Below, in pieces: positions 10,261 to 22,724 of a stretch of 58,271 nucleotides of DNA. The notes beneath the pieces were generated by a model, which worked only from the letters and a program-made list of their open reading frames with translations, ran no database searches and was not told the origin of the DNA. The translations under genes were made by a program, and so were the position numbers. Source of the DNA: Geobacteraceae bacterium (GTDB taxonomy: Bacteria; Desulfobacterota; Desulfuromonadia; Desulfuromonadales; BM103); contig JAHEDT010000015.1 in the NCBI GenBank assembly GCA_024641085.1, forward strand, positions 1 to 58,271, given 5' to 3'. The first letter of the stretch is position 1. Each line of letters opens with the position of its first letter.

Positions 10261-10397
10261 ATTGTTAAGTGTACTGACCTGATTGCGCATCCCCGGCACT
10301 TCTGATAGCATATGCCCGCCTAGAGCCTGTCTTGGCGGACAGATCGCCGCCACTTGCGGTTCCGATTACGACAGGCCCGTTCCTTAAGGAGGCTGCC

Positions 10398-10589
10398 ATG
10401 GATGAGCTGACGGGACGCATTATTGAACTGGAAATTCGCTACACCCACCAGACCAGTTTGGTCGAGGAACTGAATATCGAGCTTACGGCAGCCAATGCGC
10501 GTATCGACCAGCTGGAGCGCCAGGTCAGATCCCTGCATGACATGCTCGGTAGCCTGGAACCTGAATTTACCCAGTCTCCTGACGAATAA
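10398..10589 (+). CDS. slyX: SlyX family coiled-coil protein
   Basis: A 63-residue, almost entirely helical protein with heptad-like spacing (ELEIRYTHQTSLVEELNIEL, RIDQLERQVRSL), matching the SlyX family in length and pattern. SlyX proteins are widespread but their function is not established. The ATG follows a strong TAAGGAGG sequence at the proper distance, which rules out the longer ORF beginning at 10332. Its TAA overlaps the ATG of the rhodanese gene. Confidence 0.85.
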   Translation: MDELTGRIIELEIRYTHQTSLVEELNIELTAANARIDQLERQVRSLHDMLGSLEPEFTQSPDE

Positions 10590-11086
10590 TGATGTTCGAT
10601 GATATGAAACGCATTGGCCTGGAAGCCTGCGTACTGATTGCCCTCGGCGCCTTGTTCGGCCTGACCTTGAACCACCAGCTGGTCATGGATGCCTTCTCCG
10701 GCCGCCTCGTCCCTCAGCAGCGCCAGCCAGTCCAGGAGCTTGTCCCGGTCGTCTCACCGGTGCCGGTCCTGCTTGATGAAGTCCGGCAGTTGACGGCGTC
10801 CGGTGCGCTCCTGGTCGATGCCCGTAACCCGGAACTTTATGCTATGGGGCATATTGAAGGGGCCGTCTCGTTGCCGATCGTTGAGATCGACGACGCGTTG
10901 CCCGGTTTTCTTGACCGCGTCACCAAAGGCCGGAGCATCATTACCTACTGCAGCGGCTTCGGTTGTCCGGACTCATTCGACCTGGGCCTTCGCTTGATCG
11001 AGGCCGGTTACCGGGACGTACGGGTCTTTGAAGGCGGCTTTCCTGAATGGCGTGACGCCGGCCTGCCGGTCGCGGGGGAGGGCTGA
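10589..11086 (+). CDS. Membrane-anchored rhodanese-like sulfurtransferase
   Basis: An N-terminal hydrophobic helix (ACVLIALGALFGLTLNHQLV) is followed by a single rhodanese domain: VDARNPELYAMGHIEGAVSLP, then the active-site loop YCSGFGCPDS with the catalytic Cys, and the closing segment VRVFEGGFPEWRDAGLPV. Such proteins carry persulfide sulfur or act in periplasmic redox chemistry. It is translationally coupled to slyX upstream and to the MauE/DoxX gene downstream (one-base overlaps). The pairing of rhodanese with a DoxX-like membrane protein suggests a shared redox or sulfur-related job, but the substrate is not known. Confidence 0.85.
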   Translation: MMFDDMKRIGLEACVLIALGALFGLTLNHQLVMDAFSGRLVPQQRQPVQELVPVVSPVPVLLDEVRQLTASGALLVDARNPELYAMGHIEGAVSLPIVEIDDALPGFLDRVTKGRSIITYCSGFGCPDSFDLGLRLIEAGYRDVRVFEGGFPEWRDAGLPVAGEG

Positions 11087-11532
11087 TGACCGGAGTTCAG
11101 AGAGTGCTCTATCATCTGGCTCGCCTGGCGCTGGCTCTGGTCTTCGTCTACGCCGGCGCGGTCAAGATGCAGGACGTGGTCGCTTTTGCCGGTCATGTGG
11201 CGGCCTACCAGATTCTTCCCTATGCGATGAATTACCTGGTTGCCGCGACCCTGCCGTACATTGAATTCCTTGCCGGAATCCTGCTGCTGCTCAACCTCCG
11301 GGTACGCCCTGCCCTGGTGGCGGTCGGCGCCATGACTGTGTGTTTCATGGCGGCCCTGGTCTCGGTTTTAGCCCGTGGCCTGGAGATCGACTGCGGATGC
11401 TTCGATCCGGGGGGCGGGCAGGATGTCACCGCCGGTGTCGCCCTGGTGCGCGACATCGGTCTGATGGCCCTGCTGGCGCTGACCTGGTGGCTGCGCAGCC
11501 GAACGATCACAGGAAGCGCGAGTCGCGAATAA
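11086..11532 (+). CDS. MauE/DoxX-like four-helix membrane protein
   Basis: A 148-residue protein with four hydrophobic segments, beginning LARLALALVFVYAGAVKM and containing the conserved YQILPYAMNYLVAATLPYIE stretch. A DCGCF cysteine pair precedes the last helix. These features match MauE/DoxX-family proteins, where the CxC or CxxC motif is linked to disulfide or quinone-dependent redox steps. Coupled to the rhodanese gene by a one-base overlap. Confidence 0.8.
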   Translation: MTGVQRVLYHLARLALALVFVYAGAVKMQDVVAFAGHVAAYQILPYAMNYLVAATLPYIEFLAGILLLLNLRVRPALVAVGAMTVCFMAALVSVLARGLEIDCGCFDPGGGQDVTAGVALVRDIGLMALLALTWWLRSRTITGSASRE

Positions 11533-11580
11533 CCACACAAGCCATCAACGCCAAAAACGTTTATCAGCGAAATCGCTCAT

Positions 11581-12639
11581 ATGACCTGGAAATCACAGTT
11601 GGCCGACAGTGTCGTCACCCCGGAGCAACTGGCCGAGCGCTTCGGGATCGACCCCGAGCCGCTGCGGGCGGTGGCCGCCCGCTACCCCCTGCGCATCACA
11701 CCGCATTACCTCGGTCTGATCGAGACGCCGGGTGACCCGATCTGGCGGCAGTGTGTCCCTGACCTGAGGGAACTTGCGATCGACGATCTCCCCGAGGACT
11801 CCCTGAATGAAAGCAGCTTTTCACCGGTGCCGGCGCTCGTGCATCGCTACCCCGATCGTGCCCTGCTGCTGGTTTCAGGGCAGTGCGCCGGCTACTGCCG
11901 TTTCTGCACCCGCAAGAACCGCGTCGGCACCAGGGCCATGGCATTCAGTGCGGCCCAGATTGACGCGGGTCTTGACTATATCGCCAGCACTCCGGGGATT
12001 CGTGATGTGATCCTGACCGGCGGAGATCCGCTGCTGCTCGATGACCCCCGGCTGACAGAGATTCTGACCCGCCTGCAATCTATTGCCCATGTCGAGATGG
12101 TCCGCATCGGCAGCCGGGTGCCGGTGACCCTGCCGCAGCGCATCACGCCGCAGCTCTGTCGCTTGCTGGCCCGCTTCCAGCCGCTCTACCTCAACACCCA
12201 CTTCAACCATCCGCGGGAGCTGGTGGATGCCAGCATCGCTGCCTGTGCACGTCTGGCGGACGCCGGCATCCCCCTGGGCAACCAGACCGTCCTGATGCGC
12301 GGTGTCAATGACGACCCGGAGGTGATGATTACGCTCTGTCGCGGCCTGCTGAAAGCGCGGGTGCGCCCATACTACCTGCACCACCTGGACCAGGCCCGCG
12401 GGACGGCGCATTTCCGGGTACCGGTAGAGCGCGGCCTGGAGATCATCGCGGCCATGCGCGGCCGGGTTTCAGGACTGGGGATTCCGCAATACGTGGTCGA
12501 TCCGCCGGGGGGCCAGGGCAAGGTGCCGCTGCTGCCGGAGAACCTTCTGCAGGTGGGGGAGACGCTCAAGGTGCGGACGGCCGGCGGCATGGTCGAATTA
12601 CCCAACCGTACGCCGCTGCGTGACGTCTCCTCGGCTTAG
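11581..12639 (+). CDS. KamA-family radical SAM aminomutase, candidate EF-P lysine 2,3-aminomutase (EpmB-type)
   Basis: Radical SAM enzyme with the cluster motif CAGYCRFCTRKNRVG (CxxxCxxC, about residues 102-109) and SAM-binding GGDPLL. It also shows NTHFNHPRELV, NQTVLMRGVND and PYYLHHLDQ. The end (YVVDPPGGQGKVPLLPENL) provides the PLP-lysine region of KamA proteins. At 352 residues it is close to E. coli EpmB (about 340) and lacks the extra C-terminal domain of classical lysine 2,3-aminomutases. The cluster motif is nearer KamA than E. coli EpmB. EpmA, EF-P and EfpL lie within 10 kb, so conversion of lysine to (R)-beta-lysine for EF-P is the best inference; free beta-lysine for osmoprotection is the alternative. 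Confidence 0.85.
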   Translation: MTWKSQLADSVVTPEQLAERFGIDPEPLRAVAARYPLRITPHYLGLIETPGDPIWRQCVPDLRELAIDDLPEDSLNESSFSPVPALVHRYPDRALLLVSGQCAGYCRFCTRKNRVGTRAMAFSAAQIDAGLDYIASTPGIRDVILTGGDPLLLDDPRLTEILTRLQSIAHVEMVRIGSRVPVTLPQRITPQLCRLLARFQPLYLNTHFNHPRELVDASIAACARLADAGIPLGNQTVLMRGVNDDPEVMITLCRGLLKARVRPYYLHHLDQARGTAHFRVPVERGLEIIAAMRGRVSGLGIPQYVVDPPGGQGKVPLLPENLLQVGETLKVRTAGGMVELPNRTPLRDVSSA

Positions 12640-12692
12640 CCTGGGCCGGTCCTGGTCTGGCGCCCCCGGGCCGGAAACCTGTCGCGGACAAC

Positions 12693-13463
12693 TCAGAAAC
12701 GGCTGCCGGTACGGGTCGTGGGGCGCCTGCCGAGCTGGCTGTTGTGGCTGGCGAGACTCTGCGCTATCTGTGCGGCCTCTTGCTCGCTTAATAAACCCTG
12801 CTCGATAAAATAGCTGCCAATCCGTTGCTGCAGGGACTGTTGATATATGAGCAGTGCGTCCACCTGGTGCGGGTTGAGATAGCCCAGCTCGAGGGCCTTC
12901 TTGCCGAAACGCACGGCGTGACCACGGTGGCTGAGAATCTGCGTCACCCTTGCCTCTGACAGCCAGCCCCACTTCTGGGCGATGAAGCCTAGGGTTGGCC
13001 GCTGCCGGCGCTGCCAGACCAGGGCTTCGATCAGCTGCTGGTAGGTGACCTTCCCCTGGTAATAGCTGTACATGCCGAACTCGAGGGGAATGGCCGGGAC
13101 GGATGATTGACGAACATGGGGCTTTTGCTTCGTGCTTTGGTATGCAGCCCTTCTGCACTGGTACGATGGTGCCGGCCCGGGGCCCCAGAGGGGGGGTGAC
13201 TGGCGGCTGCGGCGGCGCTTTTCGAGGAAATCGATGATCAGTTCATAGGCCTGGCGGATCTCCCGAAAACGCTCGGTCTGCTGCTTGCGGATCTGCACTG
13301 AAGAACCTGCATAGCCGTCAGGATGGTGGGTCTTGGCCTGGCTGCGATAGGCGCTCCTGGCGCCGCTCGGCTGAAGACCGTCGAGGAAGTCATGGGAGAC
13401 GACTTCATGACCGAACAGGGTTCGACAGGCGTTGAACAGGGTTGTATCAGAATGCAGGTACAT
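12693..13463 (-). CDS. J-domain protein with duplicated MshEN-like C-terminal domain
   Basis: The N-terminal part is a J-domain (about residues 10-85) with a HHPDG loop between helices II and III, the HPD motif that stimulates DnaK-type ATPases, and the closing FREIRQAYELI helix. After a low-complexity linker the C-terminal half holds two related 45-50 residue units: YYQGKVTYQQLIEALVWQ...LGFIAQKWGWLSE and ALELGYLNPHQVDALLIYQQ...IGSYFIEQGLLSE. This G-x-L-…-Q-x-x-x-A-L pattern resembles MshEN/type II secretion ATPase N-terminal domains. No client is evident. ATG 13463 is used; a TTG three codons earlier is possible. Confidence 0.75.
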   Translation of the reverse strand: MYLHSDTTLFNACRTLFGHEVVSHDFLDGLQPSGARSAYRSQAKTHHPDGYAGSSVQIRKQQTERFREIRQAYELIIDFLEKRRRSRQSPPLWGPGPAPSYQCRRAAYQSTKQKPHVRQSSVPAIPLEFGMYSYYQGKVTYQQLIEALVWQRRQRPTLGFIAQKWGWLSEARVTQILSHRGHAVRFGKKALELGYLNPHQVDALLIYQQSLQQRIGSYFIEQGLLSEQEAAQIAQSLASHNSQLGRRPTTRTGSRF

Positions 13464-13552
13464 GATCGGCAATGGCCTTTGTGTCAGAGCGGTCCCAGTT
13501 TTTTAAGGCCTATCATCCAAAAAAAGCACATCAAAACATAAGCCATTGACTC

Positions 13553-13690
13553 ACGCAATGACGCGGAGACAAAGAGAGCAATGCCAAGACTCTGGTATTT
13601 TCTTAAGATTTATGAACATTCCCTCTGCGTCTTTGCGCCTCTGCGTTAAACATTTTTTTGGTGATAGACCTGTTTTTTATAGCCTGTCGG
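13553..13690. repeat. Dispersed inverted-repeat element, copy A
   Basis: Left arm ACGCAATGACGCGGAGACAA and right arm CTCTGCGTCTTTGCGCCTC (to about 13651) are imperfect inverse complements. They are followed by ATAGACCTGTTTTTTATAG. The same arrangement, diverged, recurs at 24281-24430. The pattern is like short intergenic repeats seen in many environmental proteobacteria. No ORF is present in the spacer 13464-13746. Confidence 0.5.
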
Positions 13691-13746
13691 GTGGGTAGAA
13701 ACAAGGGGCTTATCACAGTAAATGAAATTTCGGCTGACGATCGTGT

Positions 13747-14661
13747 TCAGAGCTCTTCCGGTGTGAATGCGACCACGTCGTCGATTCTGGCGGCATCGGT
13801 CAGCAGCATGATCAGTCGGTCGAGGCCAAGGGCGATTCCTGCTGACACGGGCATCGCGCTCAGCTCAGCGAGAAACTTTTCCGGCAGGGGGTACGGGGTT
13901 TTTCCGGCACCCCGGCGGGTCGCTTCGTCGGCTTCGAAGCGGCGGCGCTGCTCATGCGGATCGGTCAGCTCCGAGAAGGCGTTGGCCAGTTCCAGGCCGT
14001 CAATGTACAGCTCAAAACGCTCGGCAAGCTGCGGTTGACCCGGTTTGGTACGGGCCAGGGCCGCCAGGCTGGTGGGGTACTCGGTCAGAAAGAGCGGCCG
14101 GTCTTTGCCGAGGTGCGGTTCGACTTCGGCCGTCAAAAGCTCTTCAAAACAATCCCCGGCCAGGGCCTCATCGATGCTCTTCGACGCGTAGCGGGCAAAG
14201 GCGTCGCTAACGGTCAGCTGCGGCCATGGCCTTGCCAGGTCGATGGTCCGCCCCTGCCGTAACAGTTTGCCCGTCGGTACCAGGGTGACCAGCAGTTCCA
14301 TACATTCGGTCATCAGGGCATGGTAGTCGACTCCGCTGAGGTACCACTCGAGCAAGGTGAATTCCGGGAGGTGATACTGGCCTCGCTCGCCGTCGCGCCA
14401 GACCCGGCAGATCTGAAAGAGCTGCTCGCAGCCGGCCGCCAGCAGGCGCTTCATGGCCAGCTCCGGCGAGGTGTGCAGGGTCCATCTGCCGCTGGCGACC
14501 GCGTCGATGTGTGGCTCGGGGGCGTTGGTCGGGATGCGGTGTGGGGTCTCCACCTCAAGGTAGCCGCGCTTGATGAAGAAGGTGCGGATGTCCTGGATAA
14601 TCCTGGCTCTTTCCGCCAGAGCGTCACGTTTGCGGGCCAGGGCCCAGTTCGGTTCGCTCAT
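13747..14661 (-). CDS. epmA: EF-P lysyl/beta-lysyl ligase (PoxA/GenX/YjeA)
   Basis: Homologue of the catalytic domain of class II lysyl-tRNA synthetase without the anticodon-binding domain (304 residues). Motif 1 region (RGYLEVETPHRIP), motif 2 (FQICRVWRDGERGQYHLPEFT) and motif 3 (AGIALGLDRLIMLLT) are intact. EpmA attaches (R)-beta-lysine to the conserved Lys of EF-P. The start codon overlaps the end of the RND permease by four bases, so it is translated as the last gene of the efflux operon, an unusual location. EF-P itself lies about 6 kb away. Confidence 0.93.
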   Translation of the reverse strand: MSEPNWALARKRDALAERARIIQDIRTFFIKRGYLEVETPHRIPTNAPEPHIDAVASGRWTLHTSPELAMKRLLAAGCEQLFQICRVWRDGERGQYHLPEFTLLEWYLSGVDYHALMTECMELLVTLVPTGKLLRQGRTIDLARPWPQLTVSDAFARYASKSIDEALAGDCFEELLTAEVEPHLGKDRPLFLTEYPTSLAALARTKPGQPQLAERFELYIDGLELANAFSELTDPHEQRRRFEADEATRRGAGKTPYPLPEKFLAELSAMPVSAGIALGLDRLIMLLTDAARIDDVVAFTPEEL

Positions 14662-17600
14662 GGTTGCTCGCTCTCCACGTCCGAGCCGAAGGCTCTGTGC
14701 AGCCAGTGCAGGAAATCTTCGACCAGAAGGTAGAGGCTGGGGACCAGGAACAGAGTGATCAGGGTGGCGAAGAGGATGCCGAAACCGAGGGAGATGGCCA
14801 TCGGAATCAGGAAGCGGGCCTGGCGCGAGGTTTCGAAGATCATCGGGGCCAGGCCGCCGAAGGTGGTCAGGGTGGTCAGGATGATCGGCCGGAAACGGCG
14901 GGTTCCTGCTGCGCAGATCGCCACATAGGCGGTGACCCCTTCCAACCTCTGGCGGTTGGCGTAGTCGATCAGGACCAGGGAGTCGTTGACCACAACTCCC
15001 GAGAGGGCAACGATCCCCATCATGCTCATCAGGCTGAGGCTGTAGCCCATGAGCAGGTGCCCCAGGGTGGCGCCGACCACGCCGAAGGGGATCGCCAGCA
15101 TGACGATAAGCGGCTGGCTGTAACTGCGGAAGGGGATCGCCAGCAGGAAGTAGATGGCGAACAGCGCCAGGAGGAAGCCGTTGAACAGGCCGCCGGTGCT
15201 TTCCTTCATCCTGGCCTGGCGGCCCTGGTAGCCGTAGGTCAGTCCCGGGTAGTTGTCAGCCAGCTCCGGCAGGACCTGGCTGTCGAGGGTGGCGAGAATC
15301 TGGCTGGTCTGGTCAATCGGTTCGACATCGGCTGAGACCGTGACGGTGCGGCGGGCGTCGCGCCGGTTGATGGTCGTGTAGGCCCGGCCGCGTTCGACCT
15401 CGGCGACTTCGAAAAGCGGTACGAAGGTGGCGGCCGGGGTGCGAATCATCAGGTTCTCGATATTGAATTCACTGCTGCGCTCATCCTCCGGCAGGCGCAC
15501 CCGGACCGTAACCTCGTTGCGGCCGCGCTGCTGACGCAAGGCCTCGGTGCCCGAAAAAGCGCTGCGCACCTGGCGGGCGATCTCATGAGACGTCAGGCCG
15601 AGGCTTTCGCCGCTCGGCTTGATGCGGAAGTCGAGCTGTTCCTTGCCCGGGGTAAACCCGTCGTCGATGTCCTTGACGTTGGCGAAATCTCCCAGCCGCT
15701 CGGCCAGGGCGCTGCTGGCCTGATCAAGAACCGCTGTATCGCGATGCGACAGTTCCACGGTCAATGCGCCGCCGCCGCCGGGCCCACCGCGATCCGACTC
15801 GTAGCGCAAAGATTCCAGGCCGATGACCGGGCCGACCTGCTCACGCCAGAGCTGGGTGACCGTTCCGGTATTGAGCGGCCGGACGCCTGGCGGTGTGAGG
15901 TAGGCCGTGATGCCGACCTGGTTTTCATCGACCAGGGCGAAGACCCCCTGCAGCAGTTGCTTGCCGCCATTGGCGGCCGCGACGTCTTCAATGCCGCGAA
16001 CCAGTCTTTCCTGCACCTCCTGGGCCGCAGTCAACGGGCTGCCGGCCGGCAAAACGGCGGTCACCACCGCCCGGTCCGATTCGACCCGCGGCATCAGGAT
16101 CATGCCGATACGCCCGCTCATGACATAGCTGACTGTGATCAGCAGTATGGCCAGGCCGATGGCGACGGTCAGGCTGCGCCAGCGAATGCTCAGCTCAAGC
16201 AGCGGCCGGTAGCGGTTTTCGATGAAGCGGGAGACCGCGGCGCTGAAGCCCTGTTGCCAGTTGTGCAGCCGTTCGGTGATGCGGCTGGACGGGGTGCTCC
16301 GGGTGTGGGCGAGGTGGGCCGGCAGGATAAACAGAGCCTCGACCCAGGAAATCGTAAATACGGTGATCACCACCACGGGGATCGCCATCCAGATCTTGCC
16401 CATGGTGCCGGGGATGAAATAGAGCGGCAGGAACGCCACGATATTGGTCAGGATGGCGTAGGTAACCGGAATGGCGACGTTGCGGGCGCCTAGGATGGCG
16501 GATTTGGCCATGCCATAGCCGCGCTGGCGGTATTCGTAGATGTTCTCGCCGGCCACGATGGCATCGTCGACCACGATTCCGAGGGCGACGATGAAGGCGA
16601 ACATGGACATGATGTTGATCGACACCCCCAGGGCAGGGAGAAAGAGCAGGCCGCCGAGGAACGAGGTCGGGATCCCCATGGTCACCCAGAAAGCCAGCTT
16701 GAACTCAAGAAACAGGCCGAGCAGCAGCAGGACCAGGACCAGTCCCATGCAGGCGTTCTTCAGGAGCAGGTTGAGGCGCTGTTCGTAGACCTCCGAACGG
16801 TCACGGTTGATGTCCCAGTCGATTCCCGCCGGCAGGTCGGCCTCGATTTCGCTCATGGCGTCACGGACGGCCCGAGAGACGCCAATCGGCGTTTGCTCGC
16901 CGACCCGGTAGACATCGAGACCGATGGTGCGCTGGCCGTTGTAGGTGGCAAACCGGTCACTGTCCTCGAAGGCCTCGCGGACTGTGGCGACATCCTCAAG
17001 GAGAACCACACTGCCGTCGGCCGTGGTGATGACCGGGATGCGGGCAAACTCACTGGCCCAGTCGCGGCGGTCCGAGACCCTCAGCAGGATGTCGCCGCCG
17101 ACCGTCTCGACGGCTCCGCCCGGGATCTCGGTCGAGGCGGCCGCGATGCTCCGCCCGATATCATCGAGGGTCAGGTTGTAGGTGCGCAGTTTCGCTTGAG
17201 GAGCATCGACGTGAATCTCCAGTGCCCGTGCACCCGAGAGGTCGATTTGGGTGATGCCGGGGTCCTGCAGGAGTCGGTCACGAACCTGCTCGGCGGTTTC
17301 GCGCAGGGCCGCTTCCGAGGCGTCGCCGTAAAACTGGATATTCAGCACTTCATGACGGTGGGCGCGCAGAGATACCTGGGGCTCTTCGGCATCGTCCGGG
17401 AAGGTGCGGATTCGATCGACTTCCTGCTTGATCTCCTGGTACACCTTCTGCTGGTCGGCATCAGCGAGCAGCTCGATGTTGACTGAACCCTGACCTTCAC
17501 CTGCAGTCGCGGTCAGTTCCTTGACCCCTTCAAGGCCGCGGACCGCCTCCTCGACGACCAGGATGATTCCCTGTTCGACTTCTTCGGGGCTGGCCCCAGG

Positions 17601-17783
17601 GTAACTGACGCTGACCCTGACCTGGTCGAGCTCGTACTCGGGAAAGACCTCCTTCTTAATCGTTCCCGAGACCAAGATCCCGCCAAGCAGCAGGACAATC
17701 ATCAGCAGGTTGGGGGTGACCCGGTTGTAGGTCATCCAGGCGAGCGGCCCCCGTTGCCAGGGCTCTTTGCGCAATCGGCTCAT
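14658..17783 (-). CDS. RND efflux permease (AcrB/HAE1-like)
   Basis: Inner-membrane proton-driven pump of 1041 residues with the RND plan: one N-terminal helix, a large periplasmic porter loop, then helices including the proton-relay segment IVALGIVVDDAIVAGENIYEY (helix 4, paired Asp residues), a second periplasmic loop and the C-terminal helices ending in GIVALSGVVVNDSLVLIDYAN. Start segment PWQRGPLAWMTYNRVTPNLL is typical of the family. It forms a tripartite system with the adaptor and outer-membrane factor upstream, overlapping the adaptor gene by four bases. Substrates cannot be inferred from sequence. Confidence 0.93.
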   Translation of the reverse strand: MSRLRKEPWQRGPLAWMTYNRVTPNLLMIVLLLGGILVSGTIKKEVFPEYELDQVRVSVSYPGASPEEVEQGIILVVEEAVRGLEGVKELTATAGEGQGSVNIELLADADQQKVYQEIKQEVDRIRTFPDDAEEPQVSLRAHRHEVLNIQFYGDASEAALRETAEQVRDRLLQDPGITQIDLSGARALEIHVDAPQAKLRTYNLTLDDIGRSIAAASTEIPGGAVETVGGDILLRVSDRRDWASEFARIPVITTADGSVVLLEDVATVREAFEDSDRFATYNGQRTIGLDVYRVGEQTPIGVSRAVRDAMSEIEADLPAGIDWDINRDRSEVYEQRLNLLLKNACMGLVLVLLLLGLFLEFKLAFWVTMGIPTSFLGGLLFLPALGVSINIMSMFAFIVALGIVVDDAIVAGENIYEYRQRGYGMAKSAILGARNVAIPVTYAILTNIVAFLPLYFIPGTMGKIWMAIPVVVITVFTISWVEALFILPAHLAHTRSTPSSRITERLHNWQQGFSAAVSRFIENRYRPLLELSIRWRSLTVAIGLAILLITVSYVMSGRIGMILMPRVESDRAVVTAVLPAGSPLTAAQEVQERLVRGIEDVAAANGGKQLLQGVFALVDENQVGITAYLTPPGVRPLNTGTVTQLWREQVGPVIGLESLRYESDRGGPGGGGALTVELSHRDTAVLDQASSALAERLGDFANVKDIDDGFTPGKEQLDFRIKPSGESLGLTSHEIARQVRSAFSGTEALRQQRGRNEVTVRVRLPEDERSSEFNIENLMIRTPAATFVPLFEVAEVERGRAYTTINRRDARRTVTVSADVEPIDQTSQILATLDSQVLPELADNYPGLTYGYQGRQARMKESTGGLFNGFLLALFAIYFLLAIPFRSYSQPLIVMLAIPFGVVGATLGHLLMGYSLSLMSMMGIVALSGVVVNDSLVLIDYANRQRLEGVTAYVAICAAGTRRFRPIILTTLTTFGGLAPMIFETSRQARFLIPMAISLGFGILFATLITLFLVPSLYLLVEDFLHWLHRAFGSDVESEQP

Positions 17784-19033
17784 GGCTTGGTTTGCTCTCC
17801 CCCGGCCTGGTCTGTACTCCCAGCGGCCATGGTCCTCAGGCTCATCCCCGCTACCGGAGAGGGGAGGTTGGAGGTTATCAACCGCTCTCCTTCACGGATG
17901 CCACCGGTTACCAGGACATACTCCTGGCCGCGGAAGGCGATCTCCACAGGACGGATATCAAGGGTGTTTCGCTCATCCATGATCCAGAGATGACTGCCGT
18001 CGCGGACCAGGTCGCGCTCGACCTGGGCCGCTTGCGGGACGCTTTCCCCGGCGATCTCGGCCCGGATGTAGCTGCCGAGCAGCAACTCGGGTTGCCCCTT
18101 GGCCCCTGTCCGCAGTGCCAGGGGGTCGGGTATTTCAACCAGCAGCTTGGCCATGCGCCCCTGCTCCTCGACCATGGCCGTCAGGCCGAGTACCCGACCG
18201 GTCCGGTATTGTGCGGCACCCCAGGCCGCGCTGTCGTAGACACGGACCTGCGAGCCGTCGGCACGACCCTCCTGTCCGGTACTGATCCATTTCAGCAGGC
18301 TGGACGGGACCAGCGCATCGATCCAGTAGCTGTCGCTGCCGACCAGGGTTGCCAGGGTGGCGCTCGGCGAAACGCTGGTGCCGAGATTGATCTCGCGGGA
18401 GATGACCACGGCGTTGAAGGGTGCCGTGACAACCGTGCGCTGCAGGTCCAGACGGGCCTGCTCGAGTCGAGCCTTGGTCGCGTCCAGAACCGCCTTGATA
18501 TTGGCCAGCTGCGGTTCCCGCAGCATCAGGGCCTTCTCTTCATCAGTAACCGTTTCGCCGAGCAGCTCGTATTCCTTGCGGGCGACCCGCTGCTGGCCCA
18601 GCTCGATCTGCCAGTCCGCTTTGACCCTGGCGACCTCACTGGCGAGTTGCTGGATTGCGAGCTGGTAGTCGCTCGGGTCGATGGTGAGCAAGGGCTCGTC
18701 TTTGGCAAACCGACCACCGGGGATCAGTTTGTCGCTCATGCTGATGATCTTGCCGCTGACCTGGGGCTTGAGTATGACTTCACGCTGCGGGATGACCGTG
18801 CCCATGACGCTGATGGTCGTCGCATGTCGATCGAATTTGATCGGGCGCACATCGACGATCGTTGCATTGCGGACCTTGGGCCGTGGTTTGGCTTGAGGGC
18901 CCGTCTGGAGCAGCCAGGCCGCAACGGCCACCGCGGCGATGACGACGAAGGCCGGCAGCAGCAGCCGCAGGGCGGCCTTGCGATTTCGCGAAGATGCTGC
19001 TGGGGGCGTCGGTTGCTGCAGGTCTGTAGCCAT
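17780..19033 (-). CDS. RND periplasmic adaptor (membrane fusion protein)
   Basis: An N-terminal membrane anchor (LRLLLPAFVVIAAVAVAAWLL, about residues 21-41) is followed by the barrel-sandwich half-motif KPQVSGKIISMSDKLIPGGRFAKDEPLL. Next come an alpha-helical hairpin (IQQLASEVARVKADWQIELGQ), a second lipoyl half-motif (TVVTAPFNAVVISREINLG) and the beta-barrel domain. This is the standard order of HlyD/AcrA adaptors linking pump to outer-membrane channel. ATG 19033 lies one base after the outer-membrane factor stop with AGGTGA upstream. Confidence 0.92.
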   Translation of the reverse strand: MATDLQQPTPPAASSRNRKAALRLLLPAFVVIAAVAVAAWLLQTGPQAKPRPKVRNATIVDVRPIKFDRHATTISVMGTVIPQREVILKPQVSGKIISMSDKLIPGGRFAKDEPLLTIDPSDYQLAIQQLASEVARVKADWQIELGQQRVARKEYELLGETVTDEEKALMLREPQLANIKAVLDATKARLEQARLDLQRTVVTAPFNAVVISREINLGTSVSPSATLATLVGSDSYWIDALVPSSLLKWISTGQEGRADGSQVRVYDSAAWGAAQYRTGRVLGLTAMVEEQGRMAKLLVEIPDPLALRTGAKGQPELLLGSYIRAEIAGESVPQAAQVERDLVRDGSHLWIMDERNTLDIRPVEIAFRGQEYVLVTGGIREGERLITSNLPSPVAGMSLRTMAAGSTDQAGGEQTKP

Positions 19034-19034
19034 G

Positions 19035-20465
19035 CTATTCACCTTGTATGGTCGGTTGATTGAGATGGCGGGACATCTCCCAGCCTCCGGCCAGAGCCCG
19101 GCAGAGGTTGACACGGTTCTCGAAGAGCTGACGGTGGGCGGTCATCCGGGTCCGTTGCAACTGCTGCTCGGAGAGCAGGGAAATCAACACTCGCTGGTAG
19201 TCCTCGGCCCCGTTGAGGTAGCGGTCGCGGATGCGCTCGGTTGCCTGGGTGGCCAGGACCAGCTGGCGATCGATGCTGGCCAGGTATTCCTGCTGGTGCT
19301 GTTCCAGGGCCAGGGCATCCTCGATTTCGGTCAAGGCCGCAAGGACCGTTTGGCCGTAATCGTGCAAGGCTTCTGCGGCCACAGCCTGGCTGCGCTCGAC
19401 TTCGGCTTGGCGCCGGCCGCCGTCGATCAGTGGCACCAGCAGGTTGGCGGCCAGAGATGCCAGCCAGTCGTCGAACAGCTGCTCGATCTGCTCTCCTCCG
19501 GTGTTGGCACGGCCGGTCAGGTTGAGACGAGGCAGCCGGTCAGCCTCAGCTGCCACCACCCGCTGATCTGCGGCCAGCAGCCGCAGCCACGCCGAGCGCA
19601 CGTCGGGGCGTCGTGCAAGCAGGCTGCTCTGCAGGCCGGTCGCCGGCAGCGGTGGCAGATCGCCGAACATCAGTACGGTCAGTACCGGCCCCTGGTCGGG
19701 AGGGAGACCAGCGAGTATCGCCAGCTGATTCTGCAGGACCTGTCCCCGGCCGTTTGCCAGGGCCAGCTCACCGCGCCGGTTTTCGACGACCTGACGCTGC
19801 TGCAGCAGGTCGGCGATTCCCACCTGCCCGGTGCGGAACTGCAGGCTGATCAGTTCGAGGGTCTGCCGGTTGGTTCGCAGCTGCTCTTCGAGGATCTGGA
19901 CCTGACCACGCTGTTCAAGCCATTGGAACCAGGTGGTTGCAACCTGGGCAGACAAGGTCAGGGCGGCCGTCTGTAATTCCTCTGCAGTGGCCCGGGCGTC
20001 AAGCTCTGCTGCTTCCTGGGTCGAGCCGATCCGACCCCAGAGGTCGATTTCATAACTGGCGGCGAGTCCGAGGTCAAAGTCCTGCGACGAGTCTCTGCGG
20101 GAATCGACCCGCGTGGAGGTGGTGCTGAAGCCTGCACTGCCGTCAAGCCTTGGCATGAGGTCGGCACCGGCCTGGCGTGCCACGGCGCGGGCCCGGTCGA
20201 GGCGGTCCCACGCCCCCTGCAAGGTGAGATTTCCCGCCATGGCTTGTTCGATCAGGCGGTTGAGAGTGGGGTCGGCAAACGTCAGCCACCACTGCTCGGG
20301 CAACGGCTCCTGGCCGGTTGCTGAGAAAACACCCTGCGGCTGAAGGTCAGGGACTGGTCGGCTGATCGTCGGGGTGCAGGCGGCAAGCAGCAGGAGGAAA
20401 CTCAGGCAGAGCCATCTGCAGTTGGTGACGAAATGGTTGTCAGTTTGCAAGTGTTTGCTCGGCAT
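19035..20465 (-). CDS. Outer-membrane efflux lipoprotein (NodT/OprM family)
   Basis: A signal sequence with lipobox LLLLAAC (Cys about residue 29) predicts a lipoprotein. Two outer-membrane-efflux repeats follow: WWLTFADPTLNRLIEQAMAG starts the first, and the second lies around residues 270-450. Characteristic are DLMPRLDGSAGFS, AASYEIDLWGRI and NLLVPLIDGGRRQAEVE. This trimeric beta-barrel/alpha-barrel channel is the exit duct of the RND pump. It is the first gene of the leftward operon: outer-membrane factor, adaptor, permease, epmA. Confidence 0.92.
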   Translation of the reverse strand: MPSKHLQTDNHFVTNCRWLCLSFLLLLAACTPTISRPVPDLQPQGVFSATGQEPLPEQWWLTFADPTLNRLIEQAMAGNLTLQGAWDRLDRARAVARQAGADLMPRLDGSAGFSTTSTRVDSRRDSSQDFDLGLAASYEIDLWGRIGSTQEAAELDARATAEELQTAALTLSAQVATTWFQWLEQRGQVQILEEQLRTNRQTLELISLQFRTGQVGIADLLQQRQVVENRRGELALANGRGQVLQNQLAILAGLPPDQGPVLTVLMFGDLPPLPATGLQSSLLARRPDVRSAWLRLLAADQRVVAAEADRLPRLNLTGRANTGGEQIEQLFDDWLASLAANLLVPLIDGGRRQAEVERSQAVAAEALHDYGQTVLAALTEIEDALALEQHQQEYLASIDRQLVLATQATERIRDRYLNGAEDYQRVLISLLSEQQLQRTRMTAHRQLFENRVNLCRALAGGWEMSRHLNQPTIQGE

Positions 20466-20835
20466 ACCTGGGGTCCTCTGTTGGCAACCATGGTCCGGTC
20501 CGAGCCGGGAAAATCAGATCATCACGAACACAGGATTGCCTTTGGTGCCAGGAATGTGCGCTCTGTTCAGACCCGGTTTCCCGCGCCGATCGGTTCCATG
20601 GTGGCCAGTTGACAGGAATAACAGAATTATCAGGATTTTGACCGGAAAGCAAAAGGTCAATGCACGCGGCCTGGCTGGGCGTGCTACTTCTCTCCTGTAC
20701 CTCCTGGAAAAATAAAGTCGGTTCCGGGTATGGATTGCGCTTCAGGTCGACGTTATCCTAGACGAAGCAGCGGTAAAAAAGTTTAAAAAAAAACGCCCGC
20801 AAGCGGACGTTTTTCCCTTCGAATGGCTGCCGAAG
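20466..20835. other. Intergenic region between efp and the efflux operon
   Basis: No convincing gene. It contains a degenerate ACAGGAATAACAG-type run at 20611-20639 (TTATCAGGATTTT), resembling dispersed intergenic repeats, and the efp terminator at its right side. The promoter of the leftward efflux operon should be near 20470-20560, but no strong match to consensus was seen. Confidence 0.5.
20783..20815 (-). terminator. Rho-independent terminator of efp
   Basis: Stem CGCCCGC / GCGGACG (one mismatch) with an AA loop. It is flanked by an A-run on the left and T-run on the right, so it can act in the leftward direction just after the efp stop. Confidence 0.7.
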
Positions 20836-21399
20836 CTATTCCTTGACGCGGGTCACATATTCGCCGGTGCGGGTGTCGATCTGAATCAGGGTGCCCTGTT
20901 CGACAAAAGACGGGACCTGCAGAGTGTAGCCGGATTCTACGGTGGCTGGCTTGTTGTTGCCGGCGGCCGTGTCCCCCTTGACCCAGGGATCGGCCTGGCT
21001 GACACGCAGGTTGACGAAGTTGGGCAGCGTCACGCCGATGCCGCGCTCACCGTGCATGAGCACTTTCACCTCCATGTTGTCGACCAGGAAATAATGATCG
21101 TCGCCAAGCACCTCTTCACTGATGGAGGTCTGCTCGTAGCTCTTCTGGTCCATGAACACGTAGCCGGATTCGTCTTTATAGAGATACTGCATATCGCGTT
21201 CATCGAGGCTGGCCGGCTCAAAGCTTTCCCCGGAACGATAGGTGCGGTCGAAAAGGGAGCCGGTGATCATGTTGCGCAGCTTGCACTTGTAAAGCGCCTG
21301 CCCCTTGCCGGGCTTGGTGAAGTCGAACTGCGCGACGACATGGGGCTCGCCATCGATCATCACTTTGAGCCCTTTTTTCAAGTCTGCACAACTGTACAT
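20836..21399 (-). CDS. efp: Translation elongation factor EF-P
   Basis: Relieves ribosome stalling at consecutive prolines. The 187-residue sequence has the three EF-P domains: KOW-like domain I with the loop FTKPGKGQA whose Lys (about residue 34) is the site of beta-lysylation, then an OB domain, and a terminal OB domain ending in TLIQIDTRTGEYVTRV. The tip Lys with upstream PG matches the EpmA-modified class rather than rhamnosylated (Arg tip) forms. ATG 21399 is supported by AAGGAGT five bases before it; the longer form adds only five residues. Divergent from efpL. Confidence 0.95.
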   Translation of the reverse strand: MYSCADLKKGLKVMIDGEPHVVAQFDFTKPGKGQALYKCKLRNMITGSLFDRTYRSGESFEPASLDERDMQYLYKDESGYVFMDQKSYEQTSISEEVLGDDHYFLVDNMEVKVLMHGERGIGVTLPNFVNLRVSQADPWVKGDTAAGNNKPATVESGYTLQVPSFVEQGTLIQIDTRTGEYVTRVKE

Positions 21400-21447
21400 G
21401 GGAAACTCCTTCAAGAAGCTTGAATAGCGCTATTTTACGGAAGTGCA

Positions 21448-21476
21448 GTTATACACAAAAGACCGACCCGTGTCAT
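21448..21476 (-). promoter_or_regulatory. Promoter of efp
   Basis: Reading leftward: ATGACA, 17-base spacer, TATAAC. A near-consensus sigma-70 promoter about 50 bases before the efp start codon. Confidence 0.6.
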
Positions 21477-21611
21477 CGGTTTTTTCAGACCAGGGCGCGG
21501 CTCCTGGGACGTGGGACGCGAAAGTCAAAACTCTCAAGGTCAACCGCTTGACAAGCTTTGGCTCTTTTCCCCACATTTTCACCTCTCCCCTTGTCTACAA
21601 GATTATCCAAC

Positions 21612-21640
21612 TTCACTGCCAAAACAACATGTGCTACATT
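21612..21640 (+). promoter_or_regulatory. Candidate promoter of efpL
   Basis: TTCACT, 17-base spacer, TACATT, about 75 bases upstream of the efpL ATG. Moderate match to consensus. The whole 314-base spacer 21400-21713 is shared by the two divergent EF-P genes and contains no other gene. Confidence 0.4.
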
Positions 21641-21713
21641 CTCGCAGCTGATTAACCATGGGATAGCTTCCGTCAGGACAGCCCATGTCAACAGACTACC
21701 AGGAGAACACGAT

Positions 21714-22274
21714 ATGACATCCAACGATTTAAAACGCGGCCAGGTGATTCTGCTCGACAGTTCCCCCTGCCTGGTCCTCGAGGTGAGCAGTCAGAGCCCT
21801 TCGGCACGTGGCGGCAGCACCCTGATCAAGACCAAGTACCGCAACCTGCTCACCGGCCAGGTGCTGGAGAAGGCCTTCAAGGCCGGTGATCGCGTTGATG
21901 CCGCCGACTTCGAAAAGCGTAAGGGGCAATTCCTGTATGCCGACGGCGACAACGGCGTATTCATGGATCTCGAAAGCTACGAGCAGTATGAACTGGGCGA
22001 GGAGATGTACGGCCCGGTTAAGGGTTATCTGCTCGAAGGCACCGAGGTGGTCATCGGCGTTTTCGAAGGACAGGTGGTGTCCGTCGAACCACCGATGAAC
22101 GTGGAACTGCTCGTGGTCGAGACCGCCCCGGCAATCAGAAATGCCACCGCCCAGGCCCAGACCAAGGAAGCCACCCTGGAGACCGGCCTGAAGATCCAGG
22201 TCCCCGCCTATCTTGAAACCGATGAGAAGGTCAAGGTCGATACGCGGGATGGACGGTTTATTTCCAGGGCTTAA
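21714..22274 (+). CDS. efpL: EF-P-like protein EfpL (YeiP)
   Basis: A second EF-P family member (186 residues). The domain I loop reads SSQSPSARGGSTLIKTKYRN, with Arg where EF-P has the modified Lys. E. coli YeiP/EfpL has the closely similar SPTARGAAT loop, so this is assigned to that subfamily rather than to EF-P. EfpL is reported to help ribosomes through proline-containing stall motifs without EpmA modification. The C-terminus (KVKVDTRDGRFISRA) is conserved. ATG 21714 has AGGAGA seven bases upstream; the longer ORF from 21558 has an unrelated head. It is transcribed away from efp. Confidence 0.9.
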   Translation: MTSNDLKRGQVILLDSSPCLVLEVSSQSPSARGGSTLIKTKYRNLLTGQVLEKAFKAGDRVDAADFEKRKGQFLYADGDNGVFMDLESYEQYELGEEMYGPVKGYLLEGTEVVIGVFEGQVVSVEPPMNVELLVVETAPAIRNATAQAQTKEATLETGLKIQVPAYLETDEKVKVDTRDGRFISRA

Positions 22275-22364
22275 AAGTCGGGGCGCGGGACGCGGAAGAC
22301 CGGTTAAGCAACCAAAGTCAGATGATTTTGATTTTCGCGTCCCTCGCTCCGCGTGCCACGGCCC

Positions 22365-22396
22365 GAAGGCTTTTCGCAAAAATGCAAAAAGCCTTC
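22365..22396 (+). terminator. Possible terminator after efpL
   Basis: Ten-base inverted repeat GAAGGCTTTT ... AAAAGCCTTC with a 12-base loop, 90 bases beyond the efpL stop. It is not followed by a clean T-run, so the call is weak. Confidence 0.35.
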
Positions 22397-22610
22397 ATTC
22401 TTCCCTCGCAGTTCTGCAAAACTATGTTTTAGACCTCCGGTAAAAAAGCCTTAAAACCCCAGTCTGCCTCGCTTCTCCCCGTCGCATCCACTGTCACACG
22501 GCACGCGCTGCTCGCCTGCCTTTCTGGCTGGGCCTCAGCTGTTTTGCATTCTTGCAAAAAGCTCCTTTGCCAGTCTCTGCCGGCGCTCTCCGGATAACTC
22601 TCTCAAGCCT

Positions 22611-22724
22611 ATGAAATCATTGATTAAAAAGTTTTTTCACGGAGGTGTTGCGATTGGTATGCGAGTTGCCAATACGGTTCTGCACGAGACGATTACGCGC
22701 ACTGCCAAGAAAGATACGGCCTGA
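22611..22724 (+). CDS. Possible 37-residue small ORF upstream of the OFA carrier
   Basis: ATG AAA TCA ... GCC TGA encodes a short basic peptide starting MKSLIKKFFHGGVAIGMRV and ending in TAKKDTA. The TGA overlaps an ATG (22724) that opens in-frame into the OFA carrier gene, so ribosomes could in principle be coupled. No good ribosome-binding site precedes it, and it is not recognised as any family. It may be chance. Confidence 0.25.
   Translation: MKSLIKKFFHGGVAIGMRVANTVLHETITRTAKKDTA

Follow-up and report, generated by a model that had tools for sequence, protein, structure and literature searches.

Do efp, efpL, epmA and an aminomutase gene that lie close together belong to one system for modifying elongation factor P (EF-P), and why do they adjoin? 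The question is raised by a 58,271-nucleotide stretch from a Geobacteraceae bacterium (contig JAHEDT010000015.1 of assembly GCA_024641085.1, a genome of 3.5 Mb in 151 contigs; the whole stretch is hereafter 'the window'), in which positions 11581 to 22274 hold genes for EF-P, its paralogue EfpL, the EF-P lysine aminoacylase EpmA and a KamA-family radical S-adenosylmethionine aminomutase. A first-pass annotation had placed all four in one 11-kb stretch; they are real, lie there and were correctly named, but a resistance-nodulation-division (RND) efflux operon and a DnaJ-like gene, both passed over in that annotation, interrupt them.

We regard the stretch as very probably the EF-P beta-lysylation block in the form that it takes in Desulfuromonadales, with efpL added, rearranged by the RND operon. 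By homology, the aminomutase would convert L-lysine into beta-lysine, EpmA would join this to K32 of EF-P, the modified EF-P would relieve proline stalling, and EfpL, whose loop is two residues longer and tipped by an unmodified Arg, would work beside it. Most of this block is already known. The available text of PMC2821294 (2010) gives clustering of efp, yjeA and yjeK in 183 of 725 genomes, names Desulfuromonas acetoxidans among them, and ascribes two copies of EF-P each to Geobacter uraniireducens and Pelobacter carbinolicus; that of PMC11611912 (2024) reports that Thermodesulfobacteria have EfpL and that EfpL co-occurs with beta-lysylated EF-P. The new part of the finding is a hairpin conserved inside epmA and its weakening where pump genes precede epmA.

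An ancestral block in the Desulfuromonadales

From left to right the window carries slyX, a rhodanese gene, MauE/DoxX, the aminomutase gene, the DnaJ-like gene, epmA, the RND permease, its adaptor, an outer-membrane factor (OMF), efp and efpL. The aminomutase (11581–12639, 352 aa) and efpL (21714–22274) are on the forward strand; epmA (13747–14661, 304 aa) and efp (20836–21399) are on the reverse strand. We surveyed synteny in 58 genomes (the window's own, one of the same genus, 20 of the family and 36 of the order), queried with EfpL, EpmA and the aminomutase. Distances were computed from hand-entered places (82 for KamA, 56 for EfpL, 57 for EF-P and 56 for EpmA), some of which are fragments, and the KamA places are mostly the better-scoring ones, AblA-type rows of about 50% identity and all lower ones being excluded with three exceptions.

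In this survey, efp and epmA share a contig in 53 of the 56 genomes having both, on the same strand in all 53 and at most 500 bp apart in 45. The efp and efpL genes share a contig in 41 of 52 genomes, within 12 kb in 38 and divergent within 500 bp in 30. For epmA and an aminomutase gene the figure is 38 of 56 genomes, of which 35 have the two at most 12 kb apart, 33 of these convergent. The ancestral Desulfuromonadales block thus consists of divergent efpL and efp, an efp–epmA operon and an aminomutase gene convergent with epmA, and the four genes adjoin because they were inherited as this old block. Co-inheritance, which the first-pass annotation had suggested, is borne out: the arrangement recurs across the order and the genes are not scattered in all close relatives. 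Such linkage is the rule but has exceptions. Three closed genomes (G034, G040 and G053) have the EpmB-clade gene at most 1.1 kb from epmA and the other KamA paralogues, of AblA and C117 type, more than 370 kb off on the record; in closed G033, however, 2.3 Mb of the record separate epmA from the EpmB-clade gene, and in G024 the distance is 35.5 kb.

The same annotation had called the modification set complete. EpmC (PF04315), however, was found in none of 21 genomes, the window's included, with the Escherichia coli control positive. EarP (PF10093) had no match in the window's genome, a result made uninformative by the fact that no control genome matched either. No Rfam family reached its gathering score in the window or in the loci of four relatives, and the block's own proteins contain few PP motifs, suggesting no feedback.

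The E. coli yjeA/yjeK/efp beta-lysylation pathway resembles this block in that epmA, efp and an EpmB-clade aminomutase gene lie close together. There, epmB and efp are divergent with 41 bp between them and epmA is 6.4 kb away. The block differs in the RND operon between efp and epmA, in that no EpmC was found, in the D330 and R112 of its aminomutase (see below) and, in relatives of the window, in the epmA-internal hairpin described below.

A conserved hairpin inside epmA

The hairpin was met during a search for terminators after efp: in most relatives with operon-type epmA, the best hairpin lay not behind efp but inside epmA, in the codons for RARIxxxIRAFF, and it occupies the synonymous positions of codons 18–27. 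The operon-type set comprises 88 genes (36 discovery and 52 hold-out) and the pump-linked set 10. Our test, fixed before the hold-out was examined, compared the fold of 42 nt with 300 redraws of synonymous codons within the same gene, a gene passing if at most 15 of the 300 were equally stable. In the discovery set the site was placed by motif (45 loci, mostly of other phyla, lack the motif and have no value) and in the hold-out by alignment to R18 of the window's EpmA, with fold and null unchanged. Four hold-out loci that copy discovery loci (L170, L211, L214 and L243) and one without placement (L242) were excluded, L239 was reassigned to the pump-linked group once its RND gene was seen, and L178, whose upstream context is unassigned, was set apart.

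Thirty-two of the 34 tested discovery genes pass (L019 and L036 carry no value for this null), and the prediction was borne out in 50 of 52 unseen genes, including 46 of the 48 in which efp ends at most 100 nt from the site; pooled, 82 of 86 do so. In 73 of the 88 operon-type genes, no other 42-nt stretch of epmA folds as stably as this one. All 88 have minimum free energies of −15.6 to −30.6, while all 10 pump-linked genes are weaker (−1.7 to −12.9). Beyond the order the hairpin is rare: 29 loci from the other orders within the class yielded only two that pass (L267, at −22.4, and L261, at just −7.7), and 32 named loci from other groups yielded four (L090, L095, L099 and L117). One of these, the epmA of a Desulfobulbaceae member (L090:1254-2153), forms a stable hairpin from other letters at the same codons, together with T7; it is perhaps of independent origin.

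The two halves of the encoded peptide (ARI...IRA) read as near mirror codons, so that protein sequence and codon bias could in principle yield a palindrome as a by-product. That redraws so seldom reach native stability, and that loci of other orders of the class so seldom pass the same test, makes this origin very improbable. Codon use points the same way. Arg is written as CGG at codon 20 in 91% of genes and at codon 26 in 95%, against 22% elsewhere in epmA, and these are the two strongest of 173 columns tested for codon excess, although the excess for the hairpin codons as a group over the rest of epmA reaches only P = 0.037, on 10 columns.

Pairing is also kept where letters change. We measured covariation on 85 of the 88 sequences, the other three being identical copies, and note that shuffling does not remove relatedness, so that the slid-register control is the better guide. 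Paired cells make up 89.9% (84.0 shuffled), 60 cells are changed on both sides (19.7 shuffled; 3–17 in slid registers), there are 20 further pair types (14.8) and the covariation score is 0.198 (0.106 shuffled); for each of these measures none of 500 shuffles was as high. In four pairs of the stem, both partners are third codon positions. Three of these pairs are Watson–Crick in 60, 86 and 72 of the 88 genes, against shuffle maxima of 51, 83 and 65, and the fourth, at 81, equals its maximum. Weighing on the other side, the number of pairs with change on both sides (five) was matched by 107 of 500 shuffles.

A conserved palindrome need not act as a transcript-end-shaping hairpin; it could be a DNA operator or a regulator's binding site in the mRNA, and the strong conservation of its core, CCCGGATC/GATCCGGG, next to a T run that is not conserved, fits such a site. 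A protein that reads sequence would not, however, favour exchanges such as GCACGG/CCGTGC, GCTCGA/TCGAGC and GCGCGG/CCGCGC, which preserve pairing despite changes of letter, and the loop letters vary as well. We therefore hold a protein-binding site to be unlikely, though it deserves more weight than a by-product of coding.

What then might the hairpin do? EF-P is an abundant protein, and catalytic amounts of the enzyme that modifies it should suffice. In an intact operon the hairpin would allow a single promoter to yield EF-P in quantity and EpmA sparingly, acting as an attenuator or by protecting the transcript end. Such a role in the efp:epmA ratio is a tentative proposal, to which we give slightly less than an even chance. 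The stable stem, a left flank that is A-rich by eye and the loss of the hairpin where efp has its own terminator point towards termination. Against it stands the T run. At least five Ts follow the hairpin in 58 of 88 operon-type genes, 29 of them among the 36 discovery genes; the figure falls to 29 of 52 in the hold-out and is five of 10 in pump-linked genes, a frequency little above the TTT share of Phe codons (0.53). The forecast that most hold-out genes would carry at least five Ts consequently lent little support to termination, and intrinsic termination at this hairpin is not established, because the T run is so close to codon expectation. If the hairpin instead protected the end of the efp transcript, the ratio could be set in the same way and no T run would be needed. 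In the discovery set we had the impression, by eye only, that a T run goes with a short efp–epmA gap.

The available texts found in our literature search mention no element internal to efp–epmA, only operon-internal terminators in general. The epmA hairpin resembles the operon-internal terminators and attenuators described in the available texts of PMC10450193 and PMC7815308 in being a hairpin in a coding sequence that could lower downstream expression. It differs from them in being fixed at the same codons across an order, with an imperfect T run and only putative termination. If the proposed role is true, a hairpin written in the synonymous codons of epmA would be a simple answer to the problem of setting the efp:epmA ratio despite a common operon.

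Weakening of the hairpin where a pump precedes epmA

In the window the RND operon (14658–20465, reverse strand) fills about 6 kb of the 11-kb stretch, with its OMF at 19035–20465, adaptor at 17780–19114 and permease at 14658–17783, all recognized by profile matches. An RND permease stands between efp and epmA in eight of 41 efp loci (the window, L004, L007, L011 and L013–L016), with an OMF recognized in seven. In all eight the permease stop overlaps the epmA start, by ATGA in seven (at 14658–14661, reverse strand, in the window) and by GTGA in one. All nine loci with pump genes after efp (these eight and L017) have a strong terminator-like hairpin immediately behind the efp stop; in the window it lies at 20785–20818 on the reverse strand, with a 15-pair stem and T9.

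In the window's lineage the efp–epmA operon thus appears to have been split by the RND operon: efp would stop at its own terminator and end alone, and epmA would travel with the pump genes as the last gene of their operon. Co-regulation, suggested by the first-pass annotation, is not supported for the window's genome: joint regulation of efp and epmA looks broken there, since a terminator of its own stands behind efp and the epmA start runs into the stop of a pump gene, and no recurrent efpL-side promoter was found. Some relatives that lack this arrangement, G003 and G004 among them, carry close homologues of the permease (75–83% identity) on other contigs; in G009 no homologue exceeds 47%.

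These pump-linked lineages amount to a natural loss experiment for the hairpin. What is left in the window's epmA is a weak remnant over codons 16–29 (14575–14616, reverse strand; minimum free energy −12.0). A genome of another family (G159), met unforeseen in the hold-out, is pump-linked and without the hairpin, and its genus mate G051, with no pump at that place, has it; likewise the hairpin is present in G009, which lacks the pump at that place and is a genus mate of pump-linked genomes. Against this, the window's remnant still folds better than most of its redraws, only seven of 300 being equally stable, which makes it the only pump-linked gene with 15 or fewer. In G159 the permease gene and epmA do not overlap: some 330 bases lie between the permease end and the part of epmA that was matched. 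In G008 (locus L178, upstream context unassigned) the hairpin is absent. That the epmA coding sequence serves as a regulatory RNA across the Desulfuromonadales, decayed and dispensable where an RND operon lies upstream, is a real possibility, which we would stop just short of calling probable. The permease directly upstream of epmA in G159 (contig C155, loci L239 and L286; family f17) is a relative of the same RND permease, and this suggests a second insertion or a transfer.

The aminomutase and its possible product

The first-pass annotation had called the aminomutase KamA/EpmB-type, a reading that the tree upholds and the curated EpmB model does not. The protein exceeds the cut-off of the family model TIGR00238. 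In a careful tree of 75 of 95 rows (after removal of near-copies and long branches, including the own-genome paralogue L003) it falls within an EpmB clade of 53 rows with support 100/95, together with alpha- and gammaproteobacterial EpmB; AblA is outside, and a paralogue from contig C117 of its own genome belongs to the sister group. Its identity as EpmB is supported by this position and by linkage to efp and epmA. On at least 80 named contigs with EpmA loci, the epmA-linked aminomutases among the matches listed are of two main kinds, those of gammaproteobacteria being nearer to E. coli EpmB and those of alpha- and deltaproteobacteria nearer to the window's.

Several results weigh against this identity. 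The protein scores only 250.7–250.8 bits on the EpmB model TIGR03821 (cut-off 369.3) and 391.7 on the AblA model (cut-off 525.4), nearer to AblA than to EpmB; two further KamA paralogues exist in its genome; and holding gammaproteobacterial EpmB outside the clade costs 21 log units, which an approximately unbiased (AU) test does not reject (P = 0.20). The gammaproteobacterial branch is very long (1.8–2.0), which calls for long-branch caution. No protein in the window's genome exceeds the TIGR03821 cut-off, and only one of 14 control genomes has one that does, so that the model may cover the gammaproteobacterial branch only. As the window's aminomutase suggests, the curated model misses clade members outside that branch. 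An assignment to AblA on hidden Markov model scores alone was set aside after the trees.

Pocket residues give a mixed picture. Residues C102, C106, C109, R111, D270, D307 and K314 of the window's protein align with C125, C129, C132, R134, D293, D330 and K337 of 2A5H, positions whose catalytic roles in that clostridial enzyme (the cluster cysteines, R134, D293, D330 and K337) we take as given. At 31 columns that separate AblA from gammaproteobacterial EpmB, the window agrees with AblA at 15, with EpmB at five and with neither at 11. Position 290 of 2A5H is H throughout the gammaproteobacterial (7/7), alpha-type (19/19) and Desulfuromonadales-type (40/40) rows and Y in AblA (10/10) and C117-type paralogues (7/7). 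Position 330, in contrast, is E in the seven gammaproteobacterial EpmB and D in all other rows of the clade. With D330 and R112 (2A5H numbering), the window's enzyme is like all 10 AblA, whereas the seven gammaproteobacterial EpmB have E and K.

Might the window's aminomutase not be the enzyme of EF-P at all, but an AblA-like 2,3-aminomutase making (S)-beta-lysine for another use, or might a paralogue serve EF-P instead? The higher AblA score and the two AblA-like residues would fit, and the EpmB model gives the C117 paralogue a marginally better score (263.9 against 250.8 bits). However, of the 38 genomes in which epmA shares a contig with an aminomutase gene, 35 have the two no more than 12 kb apart, the AblA-type and C117-type paralogues are remote in the three closed genomes above, the tree places the window's protein in the EpmB clade, and no full C-terminal AblA domain is present, the LAM_C model matching only its positions 1–39 of 127. 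We consider these alternatives improbable and retain the EpmB assignment.

The available text of PMC2821294 states that E. coli YjeK yields (R)-beta-lysine and classical lysine 2,3-aminomutase the (S) form. With AblA-like pocket residues in an EpmB-clade enzyme, the product is therefore not readable from sequence. A second reading is that EF-P is possibly loaded with beta-lysine from an enzyme with an AblA-type pocket, as the (S) enantiomer. The window's enzyme thus raises the question of the chirality of EF-P modification outside gammaproteobacteria.

The C117 paralogue (G000:C117:15073-16065; L002:1495-2598) directly follows genes read by eye as an ATP-grasp (D-Ala-D-Ala ligase-like) and a GNAT protein, and its type is present in several members of the order. 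The third KamA protein (G000:C151:95803-96642; L003) is very divergent, lacks aligned equivalents of D293, D330 and the pyridoxal phosphate lysine, and has as neighbours, by eye, a GntR-type regulator and an alpha/beta hydrolase. In L078, L080–L083 and L095 (metagenome-assembled genomes labelled Syntrophaceae, other deltaproteobacteria or Myxococcota), the aminomutase beside efp–epmA falls near Leptospira KamA, outside the EpmB clade; a beta-lysine source beside efp seems to have been recruited twice.

EpmA, EF-P and EfpL

The window's EpmA exceeds the cut-off of TIGR00462 (339.3 over 286.9 bits), has tRNA-synt_2 as its sole Pfam match and no anticodon-binding domain, and finds its nearest solved chains in 3g1z and 3a5z. 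Its A277 (in GIALGLDR) aligns with A298 of E. coli EpmA, presumably the residue selective for beta-lysine.

The efp product passes TIGR00038 (243.5 over 185.8) and lies on the EF-P side of a careful tree of 73 of 76 rows, the 76 chosen out of 144 and three long branches dropped. Its loop, KPGKGQ with Lys tip K32, recurs in 40 of 41 rows of the order (the window counted), the remaining row being out of register. The efpL product has the loop SPSARGGST with Arg tip R32, against SPTARGAAT in E. coli, and P30 and R33 of the latter are kept in all 36 non-enteric EfpL. The tips named by the first-pass annotation, PGKGQ and SPSARGGS, are as it described them.

Assignment to EfpL is supported by the tree, in which 37 EfpL rows, enteric ones included, stand on one side with support 100/97. 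Here too the first-pass naming is upheld by tree and not by the curated models: the protein misses the YeiP cut-offs of TIGR02178 (145.9 against 264.05) and NF003392 (173.2 against 216), and a rival grouping of enteric EfpL with Arg-type EF-P has P = 0.054 in the AU test, which tells against the assignment. It also scores closer to some ordinary EF-Ps than to E. coli EfpL. It does pass NF011175 (316.2 over 301), a model named plain EF-P, but loop and tree rule out an ordinary EF-P.

Like E. coli EfpL (YeiP), the window's protein has an Arg tip, a Pro three residues before it and a loop two residues longer, and it co-occurs with an EpmA-type EF-P; unlike that gene, efpL here is divergent from efp. 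According to the available text of PMC11611912, E. coli EfpL acts through R33 without modification and is impaired by acetylation of K51. Since the K51 position is V in 35 of 36 non-enteric EfpL, we would not expect this acetylation switch in the window's protein.

The efp–efpL intergenic region

Divergent efp and efpL start codons are separated by 314 bases (21400–21713), as the first-pass annotation had it; the opposed promoters that it placed there fared less well, and only the efp-side promoter recurs. A match of at least 9 of 12 positions on the efp side (ATGACA-17-TATAAC at 21476–21448, reverse strand, in the window) was found in 25 of 26 intergenic regions, although at most five of 100 shuffles do as well in only nine of the 26. 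On the efpL side a match of 9 was reached in seven regions and beat shuffles in none, leaving nothing reliable for efpL. This looser scan gave the recurrent efp-side site; a stricter sigma-70 scan of 11400–22700, which requires T as the last −10 base, gave one site against a shuffle mean of 2.2, and none between efp and efpL.

Neighbouring genes

The aminomutase gene is preceded by slyX, rhodanese and MauE/DoxX genes (10332–11532). MauE was recognized before it in 18 of 51 aminomutase loci and rhodanese in 14 of 51, many loci being incomplete, and MauE adjoins the aminomutase gene also where its contig differs from that of epmA (L058, L060 and L061, all drafts, in which separation is not implied). 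Between the aminomutase gene and epmA, the DnaJ-like gene (12693–13472, reverse strand) encodes an MshE-type cyclic di-GMP motif (NF053729, 51.7 over a cut-off of 38), and a counterpart lies beside epmA in 14 of 40 epmA loci (the window counted), mostly in the window's family.

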